Below the pieces are notes generated by a model that worked only from the letters and a program-made list of their open reading frames with translations, had not been told where the DNA came from and did not search any database. From an uncultured Planctomycetia bacterium (lineage in GTDB: Bacteria > Planctomycetota > Phycisphaerae > FEN-1346 > JAACEH01), in assembly GCA_903929765.1 (NCBI GenBank), contig CAIYVX010000114.1, forward strand, positions 1 to 47,564: DNA of 47,564 nt, in the 5' to 3' direction. This document shows positions 1,945 through 47,564 of this stretch, piece after piece (position 1 is the stretch's first letter; each line of letters begins with the position of its first letter). Both the position numbers and the translations under genes were made by a program.

Positions 1945-2086
1945 ACAGTGGCACGGGCGTCCCGCCCGTGAGTCCCAGGGGCATCTTGCCCCTGGTTCTT
2001 CTTTTTCTTCTGTTTCTTCTTCACCCCTCTCCCTTGACGGGAGGGTGGCCCTTTAGGGCCGGGTGAGGGTGCACCTGTTTCGCCCA
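1945..2086. repeat. Composite repeat: twin hairpin, HPSPL-type unit and CACCTGTTTCGCCC tail
   Basis: The first part has two adjacent hairpins, CACGGGC/GCCCGTG and CCAGGGGC/GCCCCTGG, both with loops GTCCC or ATCTT. The second part (from 2020) is the CACCCCTCTCCC...GGGCCGGGTGAGGG unit, ending in a CACCTGTTTCGCCC tail. The same three parts recur in the same order at 16512-16661. This fills most of the 300 bases between gcvT and the PntA-type gene (1925-2224); no other gene is seen there. Confidence 0.85.
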
Positions 2087-5834: not shown

Positions 5835-5910
5835 GTGTGGCCTGGCGGCCGCTGTTTGCCGCCAGGTTCAAGGGAGAGGATATGTCACGGCGGGTCTTGC
5901 CCGCCGTGAG
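5835..5910. repeat. Two hairpin repeats upstream of the citramalate synthase gene
   Basis: The first hairpin is CCTGGCGGC (5841-5849) with GCCGCCAGG (5858-5866) around CGCTGTTT; it is a variant of the CATGGCGGC...GCCGCCATG unit found inside genes at the right end of the window. The second is CACGGCGGG (5886-5894) with CCCGCCGTG (5900-5908). They fill most of the gap 5773-5980. Confidence 0.75.
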
Positions 5911-14259: not shown

Positions 14260-14280
14260 AGAGACGGTCGCCGCTGCTTT

Positions 14281-14330
14281 TTCACCCCTCTCCCTGGGGA
14301 GAGGGTGGCCCTTCAGGGCCGGGTGAGGGG
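14281..14330. repeat. HPSPL-type repeat (CACCCCTCTCCC...GGGCCGGGTGAGGGG)
   Basis: A CTCTCCC/GGGAGAG stem and a GGCCCTTCAGGGCC stem are followed by GGGTGAGGGG. The same unit is present at 2020, 16595, 40692, 45739, 46459 and 46568, four of these inside reading frames. Confidence 0.8.
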
Positions 14331-14470
14331 TTTACGCTCTGTGCGCCCAAAGACTGGTGTAACTGCCATTAAATCCCACGCAGTATAGAATTCCCGCGCC
14401 GACAGTGTCAACAGAAAACGATCCGCCCCAACCACTCTCCTGAAGGTTACCGTTTCTGCTGCCGCTGTTG

Positions 14471-16511: not shown

Positions 16512-16661
16512 CCAGTAGCACGGGCATCTTGCCCGTGAGTCCCACGGGCGTCCCGCCCGTGGTTGTTGTTTCTGATGTTTTGGTAGTTGCTTTTACACCC
16601 CTCCCCCTAGAGGGGGAGGGTGGCCCTTCAGGGCCGGGTGAGGGTACACCTGTTTCGCCCA
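16512..16661. repeat. Second copy of the twin-hairpin composite repeat
   Basis: CACGGGC/GCCCGTG and CCACGGGC/GCCCGTGG hairpins, then the HPSPL-type unit (16595-16645) and the tail CACCTGTTTCGCCC, in the same order as at 1945-2086. Compared with that copy the loops ATCTT and GTCCC are swapped and one stem differs with pairing kept. A low-complexity GCCTTAAGCC tract follows at 16699-16730. The gap 16506-16755 holds no gene. Confidence 0.85.
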
Positions 16662-21781: not shown

Positions 21782-21853
21782 TGCTAGAGAAAATAAACAC
21801 GACCGCCCGATTCCCTCCTGCCTTTGCCGGGCAGACCAGGGAACCGAGCGGTC
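21782..21853 (-). terminator. Rho-independent terminator of the Flp pilin genes
   Basis: On the minus strand a 16-bp stem (21853-21838 with 21816-21801; two G-U pairs) is followed by TTTATTTTCT. It lies 25 bases past the stop of the downstream pilin gene. The loop itself has a small TGCC/GGCA stem. Confidence 0.75.
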
Positions 21854-21877
21854 GTCAACCTTGCCGCAATACCGGGC

Positions 21878-22045
21878 TTAGTGGCCCGTCAGGCCCGCGT
21901 TCAACGCCGTGAACTTGCCCGAGACCCACGTCCCGATGGTGACCACGGTCGCGATCACCCCGACCACGATCAGGCCGGCTATGATGGCGTACTCCACCGT
22001 TTCCAAACCGTCTTCCGCCACGAAAAACTTTTTGACCATCGTCAT
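21878..22045 (-). CDS. Flp/Fap-type pilin, copy 1 (55 aa)
   Basis: Flp pilins are the subunits of tight-adherence (Tad) type IVb pili. MTMVKKFFVAEDG is the short leader, with the processing motif GLETVEY, then the hydrophobic helix AIIAGLIVVGVIATVVTIG. The prepilin peptidase should cut after the glycine at 13. GGGAG lies seven bases before the ATG at 22045. It is too short for ordinary gene calls. The paralogue at 22159-22329 differs at only a few residues. No tad/cpa secretion genes are in the window, so they must lie elsewhere. Confidence 0.88.
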   Translation of the reverse strand: MTMVKKFFVAEDGLETVEYAIIAGLIVVGVIATVVTIGTWVSGKFTALNAGLTGH

Positions 22046-22118: not shown

Positions 22119-22158
22119 ACCATTTTTCGCCTCCGTCACGCTGGCCGCCTGACCGGAC

Positions 22159-22329
22159 TTAGTGGCCCGTCAGGCCCGCGTTCAGAGTCGTGAACTTGTT
22201 CGAGACCCAGGTCCCGATGCTGACCACGGTGGCGATCACCCCGACCACGATCAGGCCGGCTATGATGGCGTACTCCACCGTTTCCAAACCGTCTTCCGCC
22301 ACGAGAAATCTTTTGACCATCGTCATCAT
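22159..22329 (-). CDS. Flp/Fap-type pilin, copy 2 (56 aa)
   Basis: The protein begins MMTMVKRFLVAEDG and shares GLETVEYAIIAGLIVVGVIA with copy 1; differences are few (KR for KK, S for T, NK for GK, TT for TA). This copy is upstream in the transcript. The ATG at 22329 is chosen because GGGAG is seven bases before it, as in copy 1; ATG codons at 22335, 22326 and 22320 are also in frame. A tandem duplication that included the leader best explains the pair. Confidence 0.88.
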   Translation of the reverse strand: MMTMVKRFLVAEDGLETVEYAIIAGLIVVGVIATVVSIGTWVSNKFTTLNAGLTGH

Positions 22330-25769: not shown

Positions 25770-26156
25770 CTTGCAGGCAGGACAGGCAGCCGCTCCGGTC
25801 TTCGGGCCGGGGAGGAAAGTCCGAACTCCGCGGGACACGGTGGCGGCTAACGACCGCCGTTCGCAAGGATAGGGAAAGTGCCACAGAAAATATACCGCCG
25901 CAGCGCATCGCGGTAAGGGTGAAATGGCGAGGTAAGAGCTCACCGCGGGCCTGGTAACAGGTCCGGCAAGGCAAACCCCACCGGGAGCAAGGCCAAATTG
26001 GGAGCGAAGGAGCCGTCCCGCTCCGCTTCATTCTTCGGAATGAAATAGACTCCGGGTAGGCCGCACGAGGCGGCGGGCAACCGCCGTCCCAGATAAATGG
26101 CTGCCGGCGCACCACAAGGGCGTTACAGAACTCGGCTTACGTTTCTGTCCTGCAAG
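25770..26156 (+). ncRNA. rnpB: RNase P RNA, bacterial class A
   Basis: RNase P RNA is the catalytic subunit that cuts the 5' leader from tRNA precursors. The universal conserved core is visible: GAGGAAAGTCCGAACTCC near the 5' end, a central GAAAGTGCCACAGAAA, GGGTGAAATGGCGAGGTAAG, and near the 3' end CCCAGATAAATGGC and ACAGAACTCGGCTTAC. The ends CTTGCAGG and CCTGCAAG pair as helix P1 and define the limits. The length of about 387 is typical of class A. A strong terminator follows at 26172. Confidence 0.96.
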
Positions 26157-26225: not shown

Positions 26226-26765
26226 TCACAACGTTCCGCCACAGGCGAAAAAGATAACTCCAATTAACAACAACCAACCTAATAGCGCAAAGGCCTCACT
26301 TAGCTTAAGAAGATGCCGCACCTCTAAAACATATTCCTCCGACAAATTCGCCTCAACCGCCTTGAACGCCCGACTCGTCTTGCGGATTCGCAGCAGAAGA
26401 AAAATGAACAAAAACGGGATGAAGAAGTTCAAGACGATCCCTCTTTTCACTGCCCGCAAAGTCTTGCGACTCTCCAGAACAATCTCCGGCTCGGGCTCGT
26501 AGTCGCCAATCTTAGGCGTATCGCCACACTTTTCCCGACCAAACTCCTCCAGCACCTCTGCCGCCTTTGCCGCCTGCGACTCCGGCACCAGCACTCCCAC
26601 GCCCTGATCATTCAACGTGATATCCAGCCCGGTCAGGGAAAACGCATTCGTCGGCTCCACCTGCGCGTTGATCCCCTCCCCGCGCAGCTTCGCCGCCGCC
26701 AGGTTCGCATCCAGCACACTCCCCATGCGCCCGGCTACGATCATCGGGCTTGGTGGTCTCGGCAC
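26226..26765 (-). CDS. DUF2007-like protein with two C-terminal membrane helices
   Basis: The N-terminal 80 residues (AGRMGSVLDANLAAAKLRGE, then QVEPTNAFSLTGLDITL and VLVPESQAAKAAEVL) fit the DUF2007 putative signal-transducing domain, a small ferredoxin-like fold. Two membrane segments follow (IVLNFFIPFLFIFLLL and ALLGWLLLIGVIFFA). The start is put at the GTG at 26765, five bases after AGGAGGTGATT, a near-perfect ribosome binding site. It is a paralogue of the next gene upstream, 43 bases away, with an almost identical N-terminal domain but an unrelated tail. Function is unknown. It converges with rnpB. Confidence 0.78.
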   Translation of the reverse strand: MPRPPSPMIVAGRMGSVLDANLAAAKLRGEGINAQVEPTNAFSLTGLDITLNDQGVGVLVPESQAAKAAEVLEEFGREKCGDTPKIGDYEPEPEIVLESRKTLRAVKRGIVLNFFIPFLFIFLLLRIRKTSRAFKAVEANLSEEYVLEVRHLLKLSEAFALLGWLLLIGVIFFACGGTL

Positions 26766-26808: not shown

Positions 26809-27279
26809 CTAGAACGGCCACACCGGACGAGTGGATGGGTGGGGACTGTGTCGGCCGAAATAAAAGATCACAAAACCAACCGCTATCACGGCCAGCAGGA
26901 TCAGAATAATCCAGCCCCAGGACAGATGATAATCCGCCTCCTTCTCGTCCTCTGCGGCAGGCTCATCTACCGCTGCTTCTTCCGCTTCCGCGTCGGCGTC
27001 CATCTCCGCATCGGCCTCCCCGACCGCCAGGCTCGCGCCGCTCGACTCCGCCCGAAACTCTTCCAGCACCGCCTCGGCCTGTTCCACCTGAGATTCTGGC
27101 ACCATAATCGCCACGCCCTGATCGTTCAACGTAATGTCCAATCCCGACAGCGCATACGCATTCGTCGGCTCCACCTGCGCGTTGATCCCCTCCCCGCGCA
27201 GCTTCGCCGCCGCCAGGTTCGCTTCCAGCACGTTGCCCATGCGGCCGACTACAACGAACGGACTTGGCGGTCGAGCCAT
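26809..27279 (-). CDS. DUF2007-like protein with acidic linker and one membrane helix
   Basis: The protein (156 aa) has the same N-terminal domain as its neighbour (VGRMGNVLEANLAAAKLRGE, QVEPTNAYALSGLDITLNDQ) followed by a very acidic stretch (EADAEMDADAEAEEAAVDEP), one membrane helix (WGWIILILLAVIAVGFVIFY) and a short basic end. GGAGGAG lies upstream of the ATG at 27279. It is the first gene of a two-gene operon. The domain is likely cytosolic and tethered to the inner membrane. Confidence 0.8.
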   Translation of the reverse strand: MARPPSPFVVVGRMGNVLEANLAAAKLRGEGINAQVEPTNAYALSGLDITLNDQGVAIMVPESQVEQAEAVLEEFRAESSGASLAVGEADAEMDADAEAEEAAVDEPAAEDEKEADYHLSWGWIILILLAVIAVGFVIFYFGRHSPHPSTRPVWPF

Positions 27280-39996: not shown

Positions 39997-41313
39997 TCAC
40001 ACCCAAAGCCCTCGCCGCCACCACGCCGTTGCCGGTATCTCTCGACCCACCAGCCCCAGCGCCGCCTCCGCCGCCCGTTCCGACGCCCCCGGTTCGCCCA
40101 GCTTCCCTCGCACCTCCGCCAGGTCCGCCCGCATCTGCCGGTTCCGCTCCACGTTTGTCAGAATCTCCACCGCCTCCGCCGCTATCGGTTCCGGCGGACC
40201 CCAATACAAATAATATTCCGGTATGATCTTTCGCCCCGCCACCGCGTTCGGCAGCGACAGAAACGGCGTCGTAATGAACCACCGCGCCACCAGATGATAC
40301 TGCCACCGGCTCACCGGATACAGCGCGATCATCGGCACTCCGAAACACGCCAGTTCCAGCGTCGTCGTCCCGCTCTTGGCCAACGCAAAATCCGCCGCCG
40401 CCATCAACTCCGGCGTCCGCCCCACAAACGTCTCGACCTCAACCCCCGGATTCTGCCGCAATATTTCCCGCGCCTGCGCCGCATCTCGCTCATTCAAACA
40501 CCCCATCACAAACTTCAGCCCCGCCACCTTCTCCGCCATCGCCGCACACACCTTCAGATACAGCGGCAACAACCCCGCAATCTCCTTCCGCCGGCTCCCC
40601 GGCAACAGCAACACCACCTTCGAGGCTGTTGTTGTTCGTAGGGACAGGGCTCTGCCCTGTCCGGCTGTTTCTTTTGTTACTTTTTCTTCTTCACCCCTCT
40701 CCCTTGAGGGGAGAGGGTAGGGTGAGGGTGTTGCCGTTTCTTTTTTTGCCGTTTCTAATTTTTCATTTTTAATTTTTAATTTTTCATTCTGCCGTTCCAT
40801 CTCCGCAAAATGATCCATCAGCGGATGCCCGACAAACTCCGCATCAATCCCATGCTTCCCATAAAATTCCGCATCGAACGGAAAAATGCACGCCAGCCGC
40901 GTCAACCGCCGCTTCGTCTTATGCACCCGGAACGACGCCCACGCCCACATCTGCGGCGGAATATACCACAGCGTCGGCACGCGCCGCACCCGCGCCCGGC
41001 TCGCCAGCACAAAGTTCAGCCCCGGATAATCCACGAACACGCACACGTCCGGCCGCCGCGCCGCCAGCTCCCGATCCACCTGGCGGATCAGCCGCAGGTA
41101 TTTCCCGATCTCCAGCAGCGGCCCCAGGCCGATATGACTATCCGCCACCGTCATGTCGCGCAGCAACTCGCACCCGGCCGCCGCCATCTTCGGCCCGCCC
41201 AGCCCGAAAAACTCTGCCCCCGGCGCGCGCCGCTTCACCGCCGCCATCAGCTTGGCCGCATGCGCATCCCCGCTCGCCTCGCCCGCCGAAATAAAGAACC
41301 GTGGTCCACTCAT
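39997..41313 (-). CDS. lpxB: Lipid-A-disaccharide synthase with an in-frame repeat insert
   Basis: LpxB joins UDP-diacylglucosamine and lipid X into the lipid A disaccharide at the inner membrane. FFISAGEASGD at 7-17, PDVCVFVDYPGLN (88-100), WYIPPQMWAW (116-125), then LLLPGSRRKEI, FALAKSGTTTLE and PMIALYPVSRWQYHLVARW are family landmarks. At 438 aa it exceeds the usual 380 by about the length of one insert at residues 174-231, coded by three dispersed repeats in a row. The insert sits between the two Rossmann domains, just before LLLPGSRRKEI, and keeps the frame. The start is the ATG at 41313. Confidence 0.93.
   Translation of the reverse strand: MSGPRFFISAGEASGDAHAAKLMAAVKRRAPGAEFFGLGGPKMAAAGCELLRDMTVADSHIGLGPLLEIGKYLRLIRQVDRELAARRPDVCVFVDYPGLNFVLASRARVRRVPTLWYIPPQMWAWASFRVHKTKRRLTRLACIFPFDAEFYGKHGIDAEFVGHPLMDHFAEMERQNEKLKIKNEKLETAKKETATPSPYPLPSRERGEEEKVTKETAGQGRALSLRTTTASKVVLLLPGSRRKEIAGLLPLYLKVCAAMAEKVAGLKFVMGCLNERDAAQAREILRQNPGVEVETFVGRTPELMAAADFALAKSGTTTLELACFGVPMIALYPVSRWQYHLVARWFITTPFLSLPNAVAGRKIIPEYYLYWGPPEPIAAEAVEILTNVERNRQMRADLAEVRGKLGEPGASERAAEAALGLVGREIPATAWWRRGLWV
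40622..40795. repeat. Three repeat families inserted in frame in lpxB
   Basis: From left to right: GTTCGTAGGGACAGGGC with GCCCTGTCC (40629-40667; also at 25527), the CACCCCTCTCCC...GGGTGAGGG unit (40692-40731), and an ATTTTTCATTTTTAATT tract (40755-40790; also at 39961). In LpxB they read TAGQGRALSLRTTT, TPSPYPLPSRERG and NEKLKIKNEKLE. Confidence 0.88.
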
Positions 41314-44874: not shown

Positions 44875-47564
44875 ATGGCCAATCCTCCGCCCGTCCAAAT
44901 CCTCCTCGGCCCCGCCCGCTCCCACAAAGCCGCCGCCCTGCGCCGCCGCTACCTCGACCTTGTCACCGCTGGCACTGATCCCGCTCGTATCCTCTACCTC
45001 GTCCCCACCTCCGCCCGCCGCGCCGCCACCATCGACGCCCTGCTCCGCGATTCCCCCGCCGGAGTCCTCCGCCAGCCTGAAATCTTCACCTTCCCGCGTT
45101 ACGCCCAACGCATCCTCGAACTCCTCCAGACCCCCGCCCGCCGCCTCACCCCGCTCCACGAACGCGCCCTCCTCGCCGCCGCCATCGAAGATTGCCGCGC
45201 TGCCGGCTCCCTCTCCTATTTTCTCCCCATCCTCGACCGCCCCGGACTCCTCGACTCCTTCGCCGACTTCATCCGCCAACTCAAAACCCATTCCGTCCGC
45301 CCCGACGACTTCGCCCGCCAGGTTCGCACCGCCGCCCCGGCCCTCGCCGACGCCGCCGCCATTTACGCCCGCTACCAGGCCCGCCTCGCCGAACGAAACC
45401 TTTACGACGACGCCGGTCTTTTCTGGCAGGCCCGCGACGCCCTCAACGCCGCAAATAATATTTTTCCCTGGCCCGCCCACGTCCTGGTCGACGGCTTCCA
45501 CGACTTCACCGCCCCACAGTTCGACGTCCTCCGCTCCCTCGCCGACCGCGCCGAACTCCTCATCACCTTAACCTGCGACCCCGCGCGCCCCGCCCTCTTC
45601 GCTCCCGTCCTCCACACCCTCGACCAATTGAAGAAGGTATTCCGTTCCGTTGTTGTTAATCACTCTCCAGAGCCGGGTGGCATGGCGGCTGCTGTTTGCC
45701 GCCATGAATCTCAGACGCCCGACGAAGGTTCTTCGTTGTTTCACCCCTCTCCCTTGGGAGAGGGTGGCCCTTCAGGGCCAGGTGAGGGGTTGAGGCCAAC
45801 CACCTCCCCCCCGCCAACCGATACCCTTGAATCACCAATCCTCTCCGCCCTCGAACTTCACCTCTTCGACCCCGCCGAATCCTCTTCTGGATCATGTGCC
45901 ACGGTCGGCTTGTCCGACCGTGTTCTTTCTTTCGCCACCGCCGCCGGCCGCACCCGCGAAGTCGAACACCTCGCCCGCTCCATCCGCCGTCTCCTCCGCC
46001 AAGACCCCACCCTCCGCCCCTCCGACTTTGCCGTCATTCTCCGCGCCCCCGACCCCTACGCCGACCTCATCGCCGAAATCTTCCCGCGCTATGGCCTGCC
46101 CCTCACCGGCGCTCCCGGCCGCCCTCTGCTCCGCCTCCCGCTCATCCGCTGGCTCGTCGAACTCCTGAAACTAAAACTCCCCGCCACCGACTTCAACTTT
46201 GCCGACCTCGCCGCCGTTCTCCGCTCGCCCTACTTTCCGCGCGACTTCTTCCAAGCCCGCGAAACCGATTTACAAATGGCCGACCGCCTCCTCCACCAAC
46301 TCAACGTCTTCTCCGGCCCCGACGCCTACCTCCGCGCCTTCGCCTCCTTCATAGACCGCGCCGCTTCTTCTTTTGCCAAACCAAAAACGCCGGGTGGCAT
46401 GGCGGCCGTTGTTTGCCGCCATGAATCACCGACGCCCGACGAGGAATCTTCTCTTCTTCACCCCTCTCCCTTGGGAGAGGGTGCCGCTTTAGCGGCGGGT
46501 GAGGGGTCTGCGAACATACCCGCGCCCCCGCACTCTCCATCGCCGGAAGATTCCGAGACGTCGCTTCTTCACCCCTCTCCCTTGAGGGGAGAGGGTAGGG
46601 TGAGGGTGACGAATACTCCCGACGCTCCCCCGATATACGACGGCGAAAAACTAGGGACAGTCCCTATTTTTCCAGTGGACGCCGACTACGACTCCGCTCC
46701 CCGCCTCGACCTCGCCTCCGCCCGCGGCGCTCTCGCCCTCCTGCGCCGCTTCTTCGCCTGGGCCGCCACTCTTCCCCCTCGCGCCACCCGCGCCGACTAC
46801 GCCGCCTTTCTCGCCCGCACCCTCGAACAATTCGCCCTCGACTCTTCGCTCGCCACAACCTCCGACGACCTCGCCCTCACCCGCCGCGACCTTGCCGCCC
46901 TCGAATCCCTCCGCGACCTTCTCGACCAGTTCTCCGCCCTGCCCGATCTCGCCGCCGACTCGCCCGTCCCTCTCGCCGATTTTGTCGCCGAACTCGAAGC
47001 CGCCGCCAGCGCCGCCGTCGTCGAGCCGCCCTCGCCTTTCGGCCGCGGCGTCCAGCTTCTCGACGTCTGGTCCTCCCGCGCCCTCACCTTCCGCATCGTC
47101 CTCCTGCCCGGCCTCGCCGACGGCCTCTGGCCCGCCCCGCCCCCCGCCCACCTGCTCCAATCCCACGACGAGCGCGGCCTGCTCCGCGCCGCCGGACTCC
47201 AGTTCCCCTCACCCGACGAACATCTCGCCCAGGAACGCTTCCTCTTCTACATGGCCCTCACCCGCGCCTCCGAACGCCTCATCTTCACCCGCCCCGACTC
47301 CGACGAAGACGGCCGCCCCATCGTCGCCAGCCGTTTCTGGGACGAACTCACCCGCCTCGCCGGTGAAAGTTCCGAAATCCACTCCGTCTCCGCCCGCGAC
47401 GCCGACCTCCCGCTCGCCGACGCCGCCAACCTCGACGAACTCCGCCGCCTCGCTCTTTCAGTTTCTGTCTGCCCAACTCCCGGCGCGGGTGGCCTGGCGG
47501 CCGCCGTTTGCCGCCATGAATCACAGACGCACGATAAGGAGTCTTCGCTTCTTCACCCCTCTCC
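44875..47564 (+). CDS. AddB-like helicase/nuclease protein with in-frame repeat inserts (partial)
   Basis: The frame is open from the ATG at 44875 to the window end (896 codons, 3' end missing). The N-terminus VQILLGPARSHKAA corresponds to the Walker A loop of AddB-type proteins but is degenerate (H for G and A for S/T), so ATP binding is doubtful. Later parts fit the family: LVDGFHDFTAPQFDVLRSLA, REVEHLARSIRRLL, VILRAPDPYADLIAEIFPRY, VLLPGLADGLWP and FLFYMALTRASERLIF (motif VI-like). AddB acts with AddA in processing double-strand breaks. Four blocks, at residues about 267-308, 339-351, 507-579 and 872 onward, are translated dispersed repeats. A C-terminal PD-(D/E)XK nuclease domain with iron-sulfur cysteines would be expected beyond the edge. 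Confidence 0.8.
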   Translation, partial: MANPPPVQILLGPARSHKAAALRRRYLDLVTAGTDPARILYLVPTSARRAATIDALLRDSPAGVLRQPEIFTFPRYAQRILELLQTPARRLTPLHERALLAAAIEDCRAAGSLSYFLPILDRPGLLDSFADFIRQLKTHSVRPDDFARQVRTAAPALADAAAIYARYQARLAERNLYDDAGLFWQARDALNAANNIFPWPAHVLVDGFHDFTAPQFDVLRSLADRAELLITLTCDPARPALFAPVLHTLDQLKKVFRSVVVNHSPEPGGMAAAVCRHESQTPDEGSSLFHPSPLGEGGPSGPGEGLRPTTSPPPTDTLESPILSALELHLFDPAESSSGSCATVGLSDRVLSFATAAGRTREVEHLARSIRRLLRQDPTLRPSDFAVILRAPDPYADLIAEIFPRYGLPLTGAPGRPLLRLPLIRWLVELLKLKLPATDFNFADLAAVLRSPYFPRDFFQARETDLQMADRLLHQLNVFSGPDAYLRAFASFIDRAASSFAKPKTPGGMAAVVCRHESPTPDEESSLLHPSPLGEGAALAAGEGSANIPAPPHSPSPEDSETSLLHPSPLRGEGRVRVTNTPDAPPIYDGEKLGTVPIFPVDADYDSAPRLDLASARGALALLRRFFAWAATLPPRATRADYAAFLARTLEQFALDSSLATTSDDLALTRRDLAALESLRDLLDQFSALPDLAADSPVPLADFVAELEAAASAAVVEPPSPFGRGVQLLDVWSSRALTFRIVLLPGLADGLWPAPPPAHLLQSHDERGLLRAAGLQFPSPDEHLAQERFLFYMALTRASERLIFTRPDSDEDGRPIVASRFWDELTRLAGESSEIHSVSARDADLPLADAANLDELRRLALSVSVCPTPGAGGLAAAVCRHESQTHDKESSLLHPS
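45673..45797. repeat. Composite hairpin repeat inside the AddB-like gene, block 1
   Basis: GGGTGGCATGGCGGC...GCCGCCATGAAT followed by CAGACGCCCGACGAAGG and the CACCCCTCTCCC...GGTGAGGGG unit. In frame it reads GGMAAAVCRHES, QTPDEGSS and LFHPSPLGEGGPSGPGEG. Confidence 0.9.
45891..45926. repeat. CACGGTCGG/CCGACCGTG hairpin inside the AddB-like gene, block 2
   Basis: TCATGTGC then CACGGTCGG-CTTGT-CCGACCGTG, then TTCTTTC. The 9-bp stem is perfect. It reads CATVGLSDRVLS in frame. Confidence 0.75.
46390..46612. repeat. Composite hairpin repeats inside the AddB-like gene, block 3
   Basis: A second GGGTGGCATGGCGGC...GCCGCCATGAAT unit, CGACGCCCGACGAGGA and two HPSPL-type units (46459-46507 and 46568-46610). 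In frame they read GGMAAVVCRHES, PTPDEESS, LLHPSPLGEGAALAAGEG and LLHPSPLRGEGRVRV. Confidence 0.9.
47488..47564. repeat. Composite hairpin repeat inside the AddB-like gene, block 4 (cut by the window edge)
   Basis: GGGTGGCCTGGCGGC...GCCGCCATGAAT, CACAGACGCACGATAAGGA and the start of an HPSPL-type unit, in the same reading phase as the other blocks (GGLAAAVCRHES, QTHDKESS, LLHPS). Confidence 0.85.

Follow-up and report, generated by a model that had tools for sequence, protein, structure and literature searches.

In-frame palindromic repeat blocks in the addAB genes of an uncultured planctomycete

An open reading frame that runs to the end of a metagenome contig raises the question of how hairpin repeats that lie elsewhere between genes came to be read as part of a DNA repair enzyme, and at what cost to the protein. 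The window analyzed here is the whole of this contig (C114; 47,564 nt). It belongs to one metagenome assembly (3.83 Mb, 116 contigs) of the lineage Phycisphaerae/Planctomycetota, for which the nearest named relative is the Phycisphaerae MAG JAAYDY01.

Repeat blocks in AddB and AddA

The frame begins with an ATG and, as described in the original prediction, remains free of stop codons over 896 codons. The window ends with the contig, inside a repeat copy, and the 3' end of addB is cut there. The encoded protein matches the N-terminal part of AddB (Pfam ADDB_N PF21445, 2e-18), a UvrD-C-like segment (PF13361, 3e-6), and the solved AddB 3u44_B (PDB comparison, 8e-24). It also matches the NCBIfam model TIGR02773 at 8e-34, yet below the equivalog cut-off. 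The codon score is in the coding range, with addB itself included in the training set. Judged from these sequence comparisons, the frame encodes a genuine AddB, subunit B of AddAB, in line with the earlier assignment of the blocks to a DNA repair protein. Its Walker-A-like motif reads GPARSHK rather than GPARSGK; the Gly is also missing in the same-family relative G001 (GPARSRK).

The main repeat unit is a composite made up of an F1 palindrome (GGTGGCATGGCGGCNNNNGTTTGCCGCCATGAATC, with a perfect 9-bp stem), a spacer of fixed length, and F2 (CTTCACCCCTCTCCCTTGGGAGAGGGTGGCC...GGCCGGGTGAGGGG, two hairpins). Based on shuffled windows, the number of F1 matches expected by chance is zero. Three composites occur in one phase within addB, with F1 starting at 45676, 46393, and 47488 and F2 at constant spacing, and all are translated as GGM/LAA.VCRHES..TPDE.SS/LLHPSPLGEG; the third is cut by the contig end. 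In addition, addB carries an extra F2 hairpin, one F3, and one F4 palindrome, all in frame, which agrees with the predicted block of another repeat type (Table 1). A predicted translation from the blocks is exemplified by HESQTPDEGSSLFHPSPLGEGGPSGPGEGLR. The AddB homology runs on in order across every block without a stop or frameshift, and the blocks are missing in every AddB ortholog compared. In the AlphaFold (AF2) model of the 896 residues (pLDDT 76 overall, pTM 0.75), the stretches with pLDDT<50 (269–317, 506–607, and 883–896) are the blocks, and the fold is confident elsewhere. The model thus supports the proposal that the blocks form predicted disordered loops between conserved helicase-like segments. 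With 172 residues at pLDDT<50, the earlier figure of about 150 repeat-derived residues is reasonable.

The repeat load visible in this part of addB is real but gives a partial picture, as more copies are found on contig C86, in addA, and in other genes. Contig C86 starts inside a repeat and then encodes an AddB PD-(D/E)XK nuclease domain (PF12705, 5e-33; motifs GRLDR..VDYKS..QPQLY) with a 4-Cys cluster (CSDYCDYVDLC), next to addA. Because this arrangement is co-linear with G001, in which addA follows addB, C86 very likely continues the addB gene of C114. The AddB part on C86 has further in-frame blocks and AddA has several more, one of which is located between helicase motif II (DELQDTD) and motif III (GDPKQS). 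The left arm of AddB block 1 is shared with AddA block 1. AddB and AddA have 42–47% identity to those of G001 with conserved segments kept, and nearly all large insertions relative to G001 are repeat-derived. The motifs of AddA and the AddB nuclease domain (GAGTGKT, DELQDTD, GDPKQS, VDYK, and the 4-Cys cluster) are intact. Mainly local copying was rejected as the source of the addAB copies, with an identity of 0.85 within addAB and 0.86 to other copies.

Table 1. Coordinates of the addB frame, its repeat blocks, and other repeat copies (window positions, except for valS).
Feature	Position	Strand	Remarks
addB, first 896 codons (N-terminal helicase-like part)	44875..47564	+	ORF; profile and ortholog comparison
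Block 1: left arm, F1 (45676-45708), spacer, F2 (45739-45796)	45646..45799	+	Read VVVNHSPEPGGMAAAVCRHESQTPDEGSSLFHPSPLGEGGPSGPGEGLRP; absent in orthologs; pLDDT<50 at 269-317
Block 2: F3 palindrome, core CACGGTCGGCTTGTCCGACCGTG (45900-45922)	45890..45928	+	Read SCATVGLSDRV; insertion relative to G001
Block 3: composite, F1 (46393-46425) and F2 (46456-46513)	46389..46513	+	Read PGGMAAVVCRHESPTPDEESSLLHPSPLGEGAALAAGEG; pLDDT<50 at 506-607
Second-type F2 hairpin CTTCTTCACCCCTCTCCCTTGAGGGGAGAGGGTAGGGTGAGGGTG (46564-46608)	46560..46612	+	Read LLHPSPLRGEGRVRV; identical copy at 40686-40730
F4 palindrome around AGGGACAGTCCCTATTTTTC (46646-46672)	46644..46675	+	Read KLGTVPIFP; further copies in genome
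Block 4: third composite, F1 (47488-47520) and F2 start	47477..47564	+	Cut by contig end
F2-type copy outside addB	2016..2077	+	No long ORF across
F2-type copy outside addB	14277..14337	+	
F2-type copy outside addB	16590..16652	+	
Second-type F2 copy outside addB	40686..40730	+	Identical to 46564-46608
F1 copy, non-composite type	5836..5866	+	ORF 5' edge
valS with REP-RAYT-REP cassette and F2 copy	C82:71100-75023 (locus L209:601-4524)		

Repeats in the rest of the genome

In this genome, F1 has 52 sites and F2 about 375 (18-base pattern), mostly intergenic, whereas F3-related palindromes have 28 sites and F4 a few. A closely related 19-base F2 pattern has 362 sites here and two in the nearest relative compared, a genome of the same family. 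F1 is absent in 100 other genomes of the class, and within the named genome collection, exact F1 matches were confined to this genome. F1 and F2 are dispersed, lineage-specific repeats that are nearly absent from relatives. These patterns bear out the earlier statement that hairpin repeats of several families also lie outside genes. The lineage, as likewise stated there, is unrelated to Rickettsia. F1 copies outside the composites differ in their 3' flank and lie mainly between genes. Among the stretches taken in contig order, only one of 87 F2 copies is clearly inside a gene; F2 therefore lies between genes in the great majority of cases, and addAB is an exception. Codon usage, scanned over 162 repeat clusters (F1-enriched), placed 14 in frame within a gene and most others between genes or at gene edges. 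All counts of in-gene copies come from sampled stretches and are lower bounds. For F1, seven of the 52 sites are in addAB, compared to 0.10 expected under a uniform null.

The window also has two longer direct repeats. One (193 nt; 21853-22045 and 22134-22326) is 91% identical with starts 281 nt apart. The other (237 nt; 26522-26758 and 27036-27272) is close to an RNase P RNA gene (class A; 25774-26156), the sole Rfam match in the window.

The in-gene copies preserve the reading frame. All 13 in-gene F2 copies belong to one length class modulo three, compared to 30 of 61 elsewhere (Fisher p=4e-4). For the composite, 12 of the 13 well-matched copies are in genes, and all 12 use the same frame (GGMAAAVCRHESQTPDEESSLLHPSPLGEG), even though one opposite-strand frame is also fully open. 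Within the composite, synonymous changes are in excess (27:38, compared to 27% synonymous expected; p=0.008, with no phylogeny correction), suggesting that the peptide may be under some, perhaps weak, constraint.

Beyond addAB, at least 15 genes carry in-frame copies, mostly at domain junctions; folC, miaB, valS, and flhF are among them. Copies are located at the interdomain junction of FolC, at a domain junction of an AsnB-like amidotransferase, and in the linker and TRAM region of MiaB (locus L067, C84), in which F5 palindromes (MGILPMSPTGVPPV..HGRDARAT) are read in the interdomain linker at residues about 150–190. An LptD/LptC-like protein, MobAB, FlhF, and a GNAT protein also have in-frame copies. 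Two composites link a radical SAM protein to a siroheme decarboxylase within a single 762-codon frame (L063:1752-4037, C105), possibly a gene fusion by in-frame repeat. Further copies are in ORFs that, judged only by eye from their sequences, resemble CopA, an ATP-grasp ligase-GNAT fusion, a LexA/S24-type regulator, and a TauE-type permease. The CopA-like P-type ATPase (L222:4292-7225, C105:46158 region) has an F5 copy just before GDGLNDAPAL and F2 in the reverse direction, and the latter rules out a single orientation for all in-gene copies. Other repeat-spanning ORFs were set aside: those of L122 and L138 are spurious on inspection of their translations, those of L167, L172, and L186 are upstream extensions of real genes, and the upstream half of a GH42/GLMA-like ORF on C62 seems to be in the wrong frame, so this ORF is not strong evidence.

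For the possible mobilizing enzyme, the genome has eight Y1_Tnp matches. None of F1, F2, or F3 was found beside the three best genes for REP-associated tyrosine (RAYT) transposases among these, so a RAYT mobilizer of these families is putative. The search for the REP transposase family led to the single valS gene that scores above the cut-off of the ValS family. The valS ORF (1308 codons) has a 765-nt (255-codon) in-frame insertion at the editing-domain entry, between the positions that correspond to residues 204 and 210 of the solved ValRS 1gax. Within the insert, F5 palindromes stand on both sides of a RAYT-type Y1 transposase. The transposase matches NF047646 (1e-17, under the curated cut-off) and PF01797, has an HxH motif and a candidate catalytic Tyr, and weakly matches the solved TnpA-REP 4er8. 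Although a RAYT-type gene with flanking palindromes resembles the known arrangement, this one is part of the valS reading frame, and its flanking palindromes are F5 rather than F1 or F2. The ValS frame is the only one open through the insert. The ValS segments on either side of it adjoin each other directly in relatives, including G001, which therefore lack the insertion. A further F2 copy is located downstream in the same valS.

Recurrence in other lineages and known systems

AddB orthologs from other lineages were retrieved without regard to repeats. In MAG VGYT01 (G005, locus L154), addB has five copies of an unrelated palindrome (AGAGCCGCGACCGTAAGGGAGCGG) that has 281 sites in that genome. 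In Brocadiales-type genomes (L149–L153), GTAGGGGC...GCCCCTAC palindromes are read in frame within AddB and also within the long ORF after it, which is positioned as for addA; in L152, all six palindrome copies of the 12-kb locus are inside these two frames. Compared to a uniform expectation, five palindromes were observed versus 0.21 in G005 and five versus 0.25 in G101. Such excesses show recurrence rather than targeting, as the uniform null ignores differences in tolerance from gene to gene. At the sequence level, addAB is loaded by unrelated palindromes independently in at least three planctomycete lineages.

In-frame palindromic elements of about 100–150 bp are found in unrelated, apparently functional genes of Rickettsia, to which they add similar extra peptides (PMC10969869, review). 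The elements described here resemble these Rickettsia elements (RPEs) in being inserted in frame into unrelated genes and missing from orthologs. However, they differ in sequence, are GC-rich mosaics of two hairpin families in a planctomycete, and reach several copies per gene with a concentration in addAB. Because of this GC-rich composition, homology to an RPE family is unlikely. Intragenic REPs of the GTAG and CGTC superfamilies were described in several species in 2013, many of them in replication and repair genes including recBCD; in-frame palindromes in uvrA, recB, and dnaE2 were already known outside Rickettsia, and tolerance in loops, possibly flexible linkers, or altered repair was discussed (PMC3733652). 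The original comparison with Rickettsia stands for in-frame elements in the repair protein of an unrelated lineage, but cases from outside Rickettsia and from repair genes were already in that report.

Similar to REP/BIME elements, the repeats are short palindromic units that are dispersed, clustered, mosaic, and mostly intergenic, with a minority in frame in genes. In contrast, no consistent GTAG or CGTC end tag was seen by eye in F1 and F2 (F1 alignment), the composite is about 50 codons long and almost only genic, and addAB is far more densely loaded. GTAG does stand at the start of the Brocadiales palindromes. Taken together, this case is an extreme form of in-frame repeat insertion as already described for Rickettsia and a small number of other bacteria; the new features are the density, the largely gene-resident mosaic, the recurrent loading of addAB, and the RAYT in valS.

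Origin and tolerance of the insertions

The repeats are very likely REP/BIME-type palindromic mosaics that spread recently in this lineage, were purged where they broke proteins, and were tolerated in loops. The copies were probably moved by RAYT-type transposases or repeat-repeat recombination. Most insertions in genes would disrupt the protein and be lost, and the survivors would be those whose added length is divisible by three, that are read in one of the few frames without stops, and that fall in a solvent-exposed loop. At such sites, the Pro/Gly/Ser/Glu-rich peptide may act as a disordered linker, and AddAB, as a large multi-linker enzyme, would have accumulated most copies. For AddAB activity, the blocks are probably nearly neutral. 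It is not obvious how neutral tolerance by itself would account for the share of F1 sites in addAB or for the recurrence in other lineages.

Alternatively, REP-type repeats may be targeted to addAB and other repair genes, or be retained there, because a change in the enzyme is advantageous (e.g., an altered rate of recombination or mutation) or because of an interaction between AddAB and the palindromes. The excesses in addAB of this genome, G005, and G101 are consistent with this explanation, and the same view was put forward for REPs located in the uvr, recBCD, and polymerase genes (PMC3733652). However, most of the other genes with in-frame copies have no repair role, AddAB is a large enzyme with many loops, the uniform null is blind to tolerance differences, and the insertion events may be non-independent, which together leave selection or targeting an unlikely explanation. 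Less probable still is an inactive, drifting addAB in which repeats pile up freely. The high repeat load and the altered Walker-A-like motif of AddB could point to such a pseudogene, but the sequenced parts of addB and addA have no stop or frameshift despite the many insertions, the addB codon score is that of a coding gene (again with addB in the training set), the nuclease and helicase motifs are intact, and about 47% identity to G001 is retained with conserved segments; moreover, G001 lacks the same Gly, and the essential valS carries the same kind of insertions. Least credible is an artifact of short-read assembly that pasted repeats into genes: although the genome is fragmented and both C114 and C86 break inside repeats, homology to AddB, AddA, FolC, ValS, and others runs through the sequence on either side of each block with order and frame kept, misjoins would pair unrelated flanks without preserving the frame, and the same pattern occurs with other repeats in independent assemblies of other species.

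Selfish repeats read as protein provide genomes with a route for adding new peptide segments to core enzymes. This genome is a dense natural experiment, with one much-inserted operon, empty sites in relatives, and a transposase gene in valS. Independent loading of this operon by unrelated palindromes in three or more planctomycete lineages also makes the 2013 idea that REPs prefer recombination and repair genes testable. A bolder possibility, which is rather doubtful at present, is that the composite is a coding-compatible mobile module and that the RAYT/REP machinery can insert translated modules in genes. In that case, the essential gene valS would carry a transposase in its REP-RAYT-REP cassette and might also express it. 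Together with the addAB loading in three lineages, repair enzymes would then be preferred long-term hosts of translated REPs.
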